From Belnapia moabensis DSM 16746 (GTDB lineage: Bacteria; Pseudomonadota; Alphaproteobacteria; Acetobacterales; Acetobacteraceae): a stretch of 64,000 nucleotides of DNA. Under the pieces are notes generated by a model. That model made no database searches. It was not told the origin of the DNA and was given only the letters and a program-made list of their open reading frames with translations. Shown here in pieces: positions 48,493 to 51,750 of the stretch (position 1 is its first letter; every line of letters begins with the position of its first letter). Made by a program: the position numbers and the translations under genes. The stretch is from contig NZ_JQKB01000005.1 in assembly GCF_000745835.1 (NCBI RefSeq), positions 124,001-188,000 on the forward strand, in the 5' to 3' direction.

Positions 48493-50052
48493 ATGGGGGC
48501 CGCATCGTCCGTGCCGCAGGCTAGAATCGCCGCTTTCGACGAAATGCGGGCAGAGGACGGCGTCCGCGCCGCCTATGCCGACATCGACCGCTGGCTCCGC
48601 GCCACTCCACGGGAGCAGCTCGACGCCAAGCGGCGGGAAGCGGAGCTGCTATTCCGCCGCATCGGCATCACCTTCGCCGTCTATGGCGAGGGTGGCGACC
48701 CGGAGCGGCTGATCCCCTTCGACATCATACCACGCATCATCGCGCGCTCGGAATGGGAACGGCTGGCGCTCGGCCTGCGCCAGCGGGTGCGTGCGCTGAA
48801 CGCCTTCCTTGCCGATGTCTACGGCAAGCAGGAGATCCTGCGCGCCGGCCGCATGCCGGCCGCCCTGATCCTGGAGAACGAGGGCTACCGCGCGGAGATG
48901 GTCGGCATCGCGCCGCCCGGTGGGGTCTACACCCATGTCGCTGGCATCGACATGGTGCGCACCGGACCGGACGAGTTCTACGTGCTCGAGGATAATTGCC
49001 GCACGCCCTCCGGCGTCTCCTACATGCTGGAGAACCGCGAGGCGATGCTGCGGCTCTTCCCCAAGCTCTGCGCCCAGCACCGCGTCGCCCCGGTCGGCCG
49101 CTACCCGGAGGAACTGCTGGAGACGCTGAAGGCCGTCGCCCCGGCCCGCGCCGGCGCCGACCCCTGTGTCGTGCTGCTGACGCCCGGACCCTACAACAGC
49201 GCCTATTACGAGCACTGCTTCCTCGCCGACGAGATGGGCGTCGAAGTGGTGGAGGGCGCCGATCTCTGCGTCGATGACGACATCGTCTACATGCGGACCA
49301 CGGCGGGGCCGCGGCGCGTCGATGTCATCTACCGCCGCATCGACGACGAGTTCCTCGACCCGAAGGTCTTCCGCGCCGACAGCCTGGTCGGCGTGCCGGG
49401 GCTGATGTCGGCCTATCGCGCCGGCAATGTCGCGCTCGCCAACGCGCCCGGCGCCGGCATCGCCGACGACAAGGCGATCTATCCCTACGTGCCGGAGATG
49501 GTGCGCTTCTATCTCGGCGAGGAGCCGCTGCTCGCCAATGTGCCCACCTTCCTCTGCGACCGGGAGGAGGACCGCAGGTATGTCCTCGCCAATCTCGACA
49601 AGCTGGTGGTGAAGCTGGCCAAGGGCTCCGGCGGCTACGGAATGATGATCGGCCCGCATGCCACGCGGGACGTGCGGGAGGAATTCCGTGCCCGCATCCT
49701 GGCAAAGCCCGGTGACTACATCGCGCAGCCGACGCTGGCGCTCTCCACATGCCCGACGGTCGTCGAGCAGGGCATCGCGCCGCGCCATGTGGACCTCAGG
49801 CCCTTCATACTCTCGGGCAAGGAAATCCGAATCGTCCCCGGCGGGCTGACGCGTGTTGCCATCCGCGAGGGCTCGCTCGTCGTCAATTCCTCGCAGGGCG
49901 GCGGGACGAAGGATACTTGGATCCTTGAGGACGAGGGGCCTGGCGAGGCCGCGATTCAATCGCAGTCCCAGTCTCAATCGCAATCCCAGTCTCAATCGCA
50001 ATCCCAGTCTCAATCGCAATCCCAGTCTCAATCGCAATCGGTGGGCGGCTGA
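48493..50052 (+). CDS. Circularly permuted ATP-grasp protein (DUF404/407, COG2308) with (QS)14 tail
   Basis: A 519-residue predicted ATP-dependent carboxylate-amine ligase of the circularly permuted ATP-grasp family. Typical segments are FDEMRAEDGVRAAYADIDRW, LFRRIGITFAVYGEGGD, ERLIPFDIIPRII, GLRQRVRALNAFLADVY, VLEDNCRTPSGVSYML, KLVVKLAKGSGGYGMMIGPH and IVPGGLTRVA. Proteins of this family occur with alpha-E and Anbu proteins and are thought to make or attach short peptides. The C-terminus is an unusual run of 14 Gln-Ser pairs encoded by an 18-bp tandem repeat. The start is uncertain: ATG at 48493 or 48418, both with weak ribosome sites. It overlaps the alpha-E gene by one base. Confidence 0.92.
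   Translation: MGAASSVPQARIAAFDEMRAEDGVRAAYADIDRWLRATPREQLDAKRREAELLFRRIGITFAVYGEGGDPERLIPFDIIPRIIARSEWERLALGLRQRVRALNAFLADVYGKQEILRAGRMPAALILENEGYRAEMVGIAPPGGVYTHVAGIDMVRTGPDEFYVLEDNCRTPSGVSYMLENREAMLRLFPKLCAQHRVAPVGRYPEELLETLKAVAPARAGADPCVVLLTPGPYNSAYYEHCFLADEMGVEVVEGADLCVDDDIVYMRTTAGPRRVDVIYRRIDDEFLDPKVFRADSLVGVPGLMSAYRAGNVALANAPGAGIADDKAIYPYVPEMVRFYLGEEPLLANVPTFLCDREEDRRYVLANLDKLVVKLAKGSGGYGMMIGPHATRDVREEFRARILAKPGDYIAQPTLALSTCPTVVEQGIAPRHVDLRPFILSGKEIRIVPGGLTRVAIREGSLVVNSSQGGGTKDTWILEDEGPGEAAIQSQSQSQSQSQSQSQSQSQSQSQSQSQSVGG
49957..50040 (+). repeat. 18-bp tandem repeat encoding (Gln-Ser)14
   Basis: Four full copies of CAATCGCAATCCCAGTCT (the first, 49957-49974, with one G for A; copies at 49975, 49993 and 50011) and a partial 12-bp copy at 50029-50040. 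Every unit is 18 bp, so gain or loss of copies keeps the frame and changes only the length of the QS tail of the ATP-grasp protein. The low-GC, CAA/TCG/TCC/TCT codon use stands out from the surrounding gene. Confidence 0.95.
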
Positions 50053-50990
50053 TGCTCAGCCGCACGGCCGACAACCTGTTCTGGCTGGCGCGCTACACGG
50101 AGCGGGCCGGCAATGTCGCCCGCGGCCTCGGCGTCGCATCACGCATGGCGGCGCTCACCGCGCGGCTCGGTGCGGAGGCGGATGAATGGCGTTCGCTCGT
50201 CACCGCCTCGGGCAGCGATGCCAGCTTCTACCGGAAATACGAGGCGCCGACGGCGGAGGCGGTCGTCCACTGGCTGGTCTTCGACCCAGAGAACCCCTCC
50301 GGCATCCTTCCCTCCATCGAGGCGGCGCGGCGCAACGCGCGGGCGGTGCGGACGGCGCTGACCGTCGACATGTGGGAGGCGCTGAACGACACCTGGAACC
50401 ACCTCCGCGCCTTGCCGCCCGAAGCTATGGAAGGCGAGAAGCTCGCCGATTTCCTCAGCTGGGTGCGCGAGCGCGTCACGCTCTTCAACGGCGCGGCACA
50501 TGACACCATGCTGCGCGACGAGGCCTGGCGCTTCGTCCATCTCGGCACCATGCTGGAACGCGCCGACAACACCGCGCGGCTGCTCGACGTGAAGCACCAC
50601 CTGTTGACGGCGGAGGCGGAGGGCGCGGTCGATTACGTGCAGTGGCAGGCGGTGCTGCGGTCCGTCTCGGCGCTGCGCTCCTACCAGTGGATCTACCGCG
50701 ACCGGCTGAACCCGCGACGCATCGCGGAGCTGATGATCCTCCGCCCCGAGCTGCCGCGCAGCCTGATGGCCTGCTTCGCCGAGGTGGCGGAGACGCTGGA
50801 AGCGATCGCGCTCGGCCATGGTGGGCGGCGTGGCGAGTGCCATCGCCTTGCCGGCACTCTGCAGGCGCAGCTGCGCTACGGGCGGATCGACGCCATCATG
50901 GAGGAGGGGCTGCATGCCTTCCTCACGACGATGATCGAACGTGTCGCGGCGCTCGGCGGCGAGATCGACGCCTTCTACATCCGGCATTGA
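50052..50990 (+). CDS. Alpha-E domain protein (DUF403, COG2307)
   Basis: A 312-residue all-helical protein of the alpha-E family. Diagnostic segments are MLSRTADNLFWLARYTERAG at the start, the repeated LGTMLERADNTARLLDVKHH, VLRSVSALRSYQWIYRD and the C-terminal ERVAALGGEIDAFYI. It always travels with the circularly permuted ATP-grasp ligase, and is considered its partner in an uncharacterised peptide-forming reaction. It overlaps the ATP-grasp stop (TGATG) and precedes the Anbu gene by 7 bp. Confidence 0.93.
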   Translation: MLSRTADNLFWLARYTERAGNVARGLGVASRMAALTARLGAEADEWRSLVTASGSDASFYRKYEAPTAEAVVHWLVFDPENPSGILPSIEAARRNARAVRTALTVDMWEALNDTWNHLRALPPEAMEGEKLADFLSWVRERVTLFNGAAHDTMLRDEAWRFVHLGTMLERADNTARLLDVKHHLLTAEAEGAVDYVQWQAVLRSVSALRSYQWIYRDRLNPRRIAELMILRPELPRSLMACFAEVAETLEAIALGHGGRRGECHRLAGTLQAQLRYGRIDAIMEEGLHAFLTTMIERVAALGGEIDAFYIRH

Positions 50991-50997
50991 GCACGAG

Positions 50998-51750
50998 ATG
51001 ACCTACTGCGTCGGCCTGCATCTGCGTGAGGGGCTGGTCCTGCTCTCCGACACGCGGACCAATGCAGGCGTCGACAACATCTCGACCTTCGGCAAGATGC
51101 AGGTCGAGGAGAGCCCTGGCGAGCGGGTGCTGGCGATGCTCTCGGCCGGCAACCTCGCCATCACCCAGGCGGTATGGAACCGGCTGCAGGAAGGCGTTTC
51201 CCTCGGCGGCGAGATCTTGACCCTGCGCAGCGCGCCCAGCATGTTCCGCGCGGCACAGCTGGTTGGCCAGGCGGTGCGCGAGGTCTATGCCGCTGACGGC
51301 CCTGCGCTCTCGGCGCAAGGCGTGCGCTTCGACATCTCGCTGATGCTCGGCGGGCAGATCGCCGGCGGGCCGCCACGGCTCTTCCTCGTTTATGCGGCTG
51401 GGAATTTCATCGAGGCGACGACCGACACGCCCTTCCTCCAGATCGGCGAGCACAAGTATGGCAAGCCGATCCTCGACCGCGTCGTCGGATTCGACACGCC
51501 GCTGATGGATGGCGTGAAGCTGGTGCTCATCAGCATGGACAGCACGCTGCGCTCCAACCTCACCGTTGGCATGCCCGTGGACCTGCTGCTCTATGGAACG
51601 GACAGCTTCCGCGTAACGCTCAGGCGGCGGATCACCGAGGAGGACGCGTATTTCCGGGCGGTCTCGGAGGGTTGGTCCGGTGCGCTGCGCAACGCCTATA
51701 TGGCCCTGCCGCGGCCGGACTGGCTGGCGGAGGCTGCAGCGGGGGAGTAG
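50998..51750 (+). CDS. Anbu proteasome-like peptidase (COG3484)
   Basis: A 250-residue Ntn-hydrolase of the Anbu (ancestral beta subunit) family, a bacterial relative of HslV and the 20S proteasome. It begins MTYCVGLHLREGLVLLSDTR; removal of the methionine leaves Thr as the N-terminal nucleophile, with D18 and K33 (numbered with Met) at the proteasome active-site positions 17 and 32/33. Length and the C-terminal ITEEDAYFRAVSEGWSGALR are typical. No ATPase partner is known for Anbu. It ends the three-gene cassette with the ATP-grasp and alpha-E genes; the transglutaminase-like gene usually found in this cluster is absent here. Confidence 0.95.
   Translation: MTYCVGLHLREGLVLLSDTRTNAGVDNISTFGKMQVEESPGERVLAMLSAGNLAITQAVWNRLQEGVSLGGEILTLRSAPSMFRAAQLVGQAVREVYAADGPALSAQGVRFDISLMLGGQIAGGPPRLFLVYAAGNFIEATTDTPFLQIGEHKYGKPILDRVVGFDTPLMDGVKLVLISMDSTLRSNLTVGMPVDLLLYGTDSFRVTLRRRITEEDAYFRAVSEGWSGALRNAYMALPRPDWLAEAAAGE

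Follow-up and report, generated by a model that had tools for sequence, protein, structure and literature searches.

In Yersinia bercovieri, according to PMC6376114, and in 85 of the loci collected in this study, the Anbu operon has four genes, encoding an ATP-grasp ligase, an alpha-E protein, a transglutaminase (TG), and the proteasome-like protein Anbu. A peptide-synthesis system in which Anbu acts as the peptidase was proposed earlier in PMC5666114. The window, i.e., the whole stretch of 64,000 nucleotides of Belnapia moabensis DSM 16746 analyzed here, carries a cassette that shares three of these genes, their order, and the Anbu active site with the four-gene operon but has no TG gene and encodes a ligase with a long Gln/Ser tail. 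The locus raises the question of whether this cassette is an intact operon in its own right or one whose TG now lies or acts elsewhere, and of how the ligase tail relates to the missing gene.

An intact operon of three genes

The preliminary description, drawn from the sequence alone, had read three closely joined genes as those of an ATP-grasp ligase, an alpha-E protein, and Anbu. Both the families and the intactness of the operon were confirmed by Pfam matches, by solved PDB chains, by the TGATG overlap between the first two genes, and by the 7-nt gap between the alpha-E and Anbu genes (Table 1); the COG numbers are those of that description, the families themselves having been tested here by Pfam and PDB. 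All three genes lie on one strand in the canonical operon order minus the TG.

Table 1. Features of the Anbu cassette, with positions counted from the first nucleotide of the window
Feature	Positions	Strand	Evidence
Circularly permuted ATP-grasp ligase (COG2308)	48493..50052	+	CP_ATPgrasp_2 550 bits; PDB 3n6x E 2e-205
(QS)14 C-terminal tail of the ATP-grasp	49957..50040	+	TRF; 6-bp codon pairs within an 18-bp tandem unit
TGATG, overlap of ATP-grasp stop and alpha-E start	50050..50054	+	Sequence
Alpha-E protein (COG2307)	50052..50990	+	Pfam Alpha-E 327 bits
Anbu Ntn-hydrolase (COG3484), Thr1/Asp17/Lys32 intact	50998..51750	+	PDB Anbu chains; alignment

The ATP-grasp protein covers the CP_ATPgrasp_2 family over its whole length (374 of 374 Pfam positions), and its gene may start at either of two in-frame ATGs, 48493 or 48418, which corrects the single start given previously. 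Its core (residues 35 to 505) aligns with PDB 3n6x, an ATP-grasp protein labeled as putative glutathionylspermidine synthase, whose crystallized chain ends at KDTWILKD and bears no tail, unlike the window ligase. The 1-nt overlap with the alpha-E gene recurs in 23 of the 46 loci of the clade described below, as judged from the start of the alpha-E match. The alpha-E protein matches positions 1 to 293 of the 294 positions of Pfam Alpha-E, carries an ER motif (E17 R18) that is invariant in 12 sequences, and is predicted to be all-helical (pLDDT 90), its model having no match among solved PDB folds at E ≤ 0.001. The Anbu gene product matches the solved Anbu chains 5loy, 5nyj, 5nyf, 5lox, and 5nyw (E 7e-93 to 4e-71), four weak matches of the same query to designed TIM barrels being set aside, and had no Pfam match at E 0.001; none of the three proteins had an NCBIfam match. 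Measured against two genomes of the same genus, the three cassette genes have omega values of 0.05 to 0.12, and therefore the window's copy is not decaying. As for the flanks in same-genus loci, a TPP enzyme adjoins the cassette in 5 of 7 and a Fer2 protein in all 7.

The Anbu active site had likewise been described as intact, and both the sequence and the alignment agree: the protein begins MTYCVG at position 50998, with Thr1 following the Met and with Asp17 and Lys32 in place. PMC6376114 names the N-terminal Thr, Asp17, and Lys32/33 for Y. bercovieri Anbu. The Thr/Asp/Lys set is kept by Anbu in 189 of 192 loci, a conservation that is partly due to bait bias because the loci were found through Anbu. 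In two loci (L281 and L293), the presumed nucleophile is Ser instead of Thr (MSYC), and a divergent Anbu (L050) has its Lys one place earlier. An open-ring (split-ring) assembly is known for Anbu homologues, as reported in PMC5666114.

Probable repeated loss of the linked TG

Among genomes of the order, Anbu occurs in 97 of 394; the corresponding counts are 125 of 387 for the class and 161 of 397 for the phylum. We read 199 loci, of which 192 were kept once seven duplicates had been dropped; a readable ATP-grasp/alpha-E pair lies beside Anbu in 152, the other 40 being excluded from the tail counts. Since the 80 named loci were the best 80 of 587 relatives, and the rest came from all 18 relatives found by the Anbu search and from hand-picked matches in the order, class, and phylum, locus frequencies in this study are not population estimates.

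Across the 152 loci, the TG is live between alpha-E and Anbu in 85, dead (without its Cys) in 12, absent in 52, and elsewhere in the stretch in 3, and the tree of these loci contains 13 maximal clades without a live linked TG. Linked TG catalysis, or the gene itself, would have been lost about 13 times, a number that is approximate because the FastTree tree has weak branches. The three loci with the TG elsewhere (L160, L162, and L299) are rearranged, the TG lying on the far side of Anbu or, in opposite orientation, upstream of the ATP-grasp gene. The interval between alpha-E and Anbu can hold other genes: a reverse-strand ORF, oxidoreductase-like by eye, separates TG and Anbu in genome G049 (L045:4870-5968; this locus is also L099, Rhodospirillales bacterium TMPK1), and ORFs unrelated to the TG, of 183 and 128 codons, lie between alpha-E and Anbu in L207 and L093, respectively.

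The TG-less form is best represented in a clade of 46 loci (FastTree local support 1.0), which we label roseomonad after its named members among the relatives listed (Roseomonas, Neoroseomonas, Falsiroseomonas, Pseudoroseomonas, Rhodovarius, and Humitalea). None of the 46 has a live linked TG; 44 have no linked TG gene, and 2 have a TG lacking the catalytic Cys. A profile scan for TG remnants in 23 gaps of >60 nt between alpha-E and Anbu in TG-absent loci gave a best E of 0.29 and no credible match. In the two exceptions, Falsiroseomonas stagni (L094) and genome G422 (L229), both the Cys and the Asp of the TG are replaced. The nesting of these dead TGs in an otherwise TG-less clade fits inactivation of the TG before its deletion, re-acquisition of a TG being a possible alternative for these two loci.

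Among dead TGs, the Cys is replaced by D, A, V, P, or Y, in a context that aligns plainly in all but L167, and the frame is open in L123, L128, L146, L158, L167, L168, L107, L265, L268, and L270. The Cys-less operon TG is a recurrent pseudoenzyme, seen in Bosea, Methylobacterium, Siculibacillus, and others. Omega is 0.22 to 0.43 for dead TGs (three pairs) versus 0.10 to 0.14 for live TGs (three of four pairs, where computable). A relaxation specific to the Cys-less TG is unsupported, because the alpha-E omega of dead-TG pairs is also higher and the ratios of TG to alpha-E omega within the same pair are alike (1.5 to 2.6 for dead and 1.6 to 2.6 for live TGs). Cys-less TGs stay under purifying selection, which suggests that they may have a non-catalytic role.

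A proposed ligase/alpha-E/Ntn-hydrolase core

A live linked TG is missing throughout the 46-locus clade and from about a dozen more clades, all of which retain the ligase, alpha-E, and the active site of Anbu. We propose that the cassette is an intact three-gene Anbu operon that arose from the four-gene form, with the ligase, alpha-E, and the Ntn-hydrolase as the core, the TG as an accessory, and a ligase arm that was tolerated or favored after TG loss, a reading to which we assign a probability of about one half. The ATP-grasp would activate a carboxylate with ATP and, together with alpha-E, form an amide bond on some substrate, and Anbu would cleave or edit the amide-bond product via its N-terminal Thr. 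TG chemistry would be a dispensable step, the TG protein would partly serve as a scaffold, and within the clade it would have been inactivated first and deleted later. The ligase arm may be a low-complexity segment for interactions, tolerable and sometimes even advantageous when the C-terminus is freed from its part in a TG-containing complex. For Y. bercovieri, PMC6376114 reports that the ATP-grasp releases phosphate from ATP, that Anbu has no activity on proteasome substrates, and that the operon proteins did not form a stable complex in the tests made; the last two results count against the proposed reading.

The preliminary description had suggested a minimal variant in which three proteins suffice. 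The variant stands: the cassette belongs to a real, clade-wide three-gene variant of the known Anbu operon, in which the TG-less form is stable, and the repeated losses show the catalytic step of the TG to be one that has been given up again and again in evolution. Sufficiency does not follow, because four TG-domain matches lie elsewhere in the genome, although none of them is operon-type. A search of the literature, with most subscription papers outside its reach, found no description of TG-less Anbu operons. Natural three-gene operons, together with those holding a Cys-less TG, suggest which step of the unsolved Anbu chemistry is dispensable. The three-gene form also offers a simpler protein set for reconstitution, and the intermediates L094 and L229 a way to ask what the TG contributes besides catalysis.

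The ligase tail and the state of the TG

The (QS)14 tail reported on the ligase was recovered by TRF as 4.7 copies of the 18-bp unit with a 98% match, and an exact run of 3.5 of these codon pairs is found at no other place in the 6.7-Mb assembly. Judged from this repeat, the length of the window tail is evidently the product of tandem expansion. The predicted ATP-grasp model (pLDDT 47.8) is too poor to place the tail.

Where the TG is live, the ligase usually ends ~4 residues past the conserved KDTW. Tails of at least 8 residues past KDTW are found in 8 of 85 loci with a live TG, 6 of 12 with a dead one, 48 of 52 with none, and 1 of 3 with the TG elsewhere. The association was tested on the tree because much of the pattern comes from one clade: the LRT for correlated evolution gave p = 0.008 with all loci, p = 0.015 with the 46-locus clade as one tip, and p between 0.015 and 0.035 in four codings with the three rearranged loci scored as TG-absent instead of elsewhere. 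Outside the clade, long tails occur in 8 of 18 dead or absent loci, the other 10 having none, versus 9 of the 88 remaining loci (Fisher p = 0.0015, tree-blind). Eight live-TG loci have long tails, with at least 3 Gln in L165 and L272; Gln-richness recurs outside the clade in these two and in L107 and L267. Altogether, there is modest support for the view that longer, often Gln-rich ATP-grasp C-termini tend to go with a dead or absent TG.

Within the clade, Gln makes up 17.9% of the tails versus 1.9% of the ligase core. Gln-richness looks like a property acting at the protein level, because the tail Gln codons are mixed, the other two frames do not have Gln among their six commonest residues, and the residues between Gln vary (S, G, A, T, or M). 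It is dispensable, since the tail holds fewer than 3 Gln in 11 loci of the 46-locus clade and some tails there have none at all. This composition bears on a neutral origin of the tail, in which a lost stop led to readthrough into the spacer, as far as the stop overlapping the alpha-E start, and slippage then lengthened it, so that relaxed constraint after TG loss would suffice. The nearly perfect 18-bp expansion, the wide variation in length among relatives, and the Gln-poor clade members all speak for such an origin, as do tail ends that follow from how the two genes overlap (a 7-nt overlap onto the alpha-E start accompanies 18 of the 19 terminal Cys). What it leaves less well explained is the recurrence of Gln-richness with mixed codons and varied intervening residues, also in the four loci outside the clade, and we regard it as a tentative but quite conceivable account. 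The same overlap makes the terminal Cys a by-product and rules it out as a chemical handle; a terminal Gly-Gly was set aside for the same role, as it probably reflects a ribosome-binding sequence.

Other TGs of the genome

The absence of the TG member from the cassette was confirmed, with no TG gene in the operon and, in the genome-wide TG-domain search, none on its contig (C5). The search for COG1305 genes and extra ATP-grasp/alpha-E copies, suggested as a check in the preliminary description, returned four TG-domain matches, none operon-type, and two further ATP-grasp/alpha-E pairs, in a genome with three ATP-grasp genes, three alpha-E genes, and one Anbu. Two matches lie on contig C59 beside an ATP-grasp/alpha-E fusion, and two form a tandem pair on contig C16. 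The C59 cluster has the ligase and alpha-E families in common with the cassette but differs from it by its fused proteins and linked TGs, and no Anbu lies beside it, the only Anbu match of the genome being that of the cassette. The scenario of a complete COG1305-tied copy elsewhere with a broken cassette here does not describe this genome, given the low omega of the cassette and a C59 copy without Anbu.

With the operon TG of G049 as the query, scores were 605, 261, 221, and 141 bits in G049, G118, G027, and G422 and at most 89 bits in 13 searched genomes whose Anbu has no linked TG, the window's genome reaching 72.5 bits. In a TG tree with unresolved deep branches, built from 54 of 80 TG matches of 19 Anbu genomes plus 15 more operon TGs and leaving out long COG1305 proteins and some C59-type TGs, the C16 pair and the small C59 TG fall in groups other than the operon TG; in G049, an operon TG occurs alongside likely orthologues of the C16 pair. 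Because the bit scores separate cleanly, the C16 and C59 TGs group elsewhere, and G049 has both kinds, the operon TG is, on this comparison, to be considered lost from the window's genome rather than moved. The C16 pair as a relocated operon TG was ruled out by the tree and by the low scores.

Other COG1305 proteins, of the C16 pair or the C59 fusion cluster, could still supply the TG function in trans, which would leave the system four-membered. TG domains are encoded by 19 of 19 Anbu genomes tested, and both C16 proteins keep their Cys motifs; however, the likely orthologues of the C16 pair coexist with an operon TG in G049, the TGs of the window's genome do not exceed the 72.5 bits given above, and 12 operons keep a TG gene from which the Cys is missing. 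We consider supply in trans rather unlikely.

Other possible roles for the tail

Besides the dispensable-TG reading that we prefer, the ligase C-terminus and the TG might dock at the same site, on alpha-E or on the Anbu staircase, with the Gln-rich arm replacing the dead or lost TG. We hold such a shared site to be improbable; if true, there would be two interchangeable kinds of Anbu system, one gated by the TG and the other by the tail, both built on the same minimal core of ligase and Ntn-hydrolase. A Gln in a flexible context of small residues is a plausible TG site, and the tail could be a self-substrate, with the TG or the ligase acting on its Gln side chains or its C-terminal carboxylate and Anbu removing them. 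Long tails, however, occur mostly where a linked TG is absent, and their ends are not conserved, the terminal Cys being due to the overlap, which makes self-modification very unlikely. The earlier suggestion of the tail as a linker or self-substrate gains no support from its widely varying length or from the 11 Gln-poor clade members. Least credible of all is a role at the RNA level in keeping the alpha-E translation start unstructured, for although CAA accounts for 71 of 221 tail Gln codons (32%) versus 20 of 398 in the core (5%), synonymous versions of the start regions are not significantly more structured than the native ones (p = 0.14 for 46 loci; p = 0.23 for the 35 with at least 3 Gln).

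A Gln/Ser tail is also seen on another protein of the same genome: contig C96 (L030:1-3165) carries another ATP-grasp/alpha-E pair, whose alpha-E bears a QSQSQSQ tail, followed by an N-terminal proteasome-like ORF of ~28 residues that is cut by an apparent transposase gene, recognized by eye, at the contig end.
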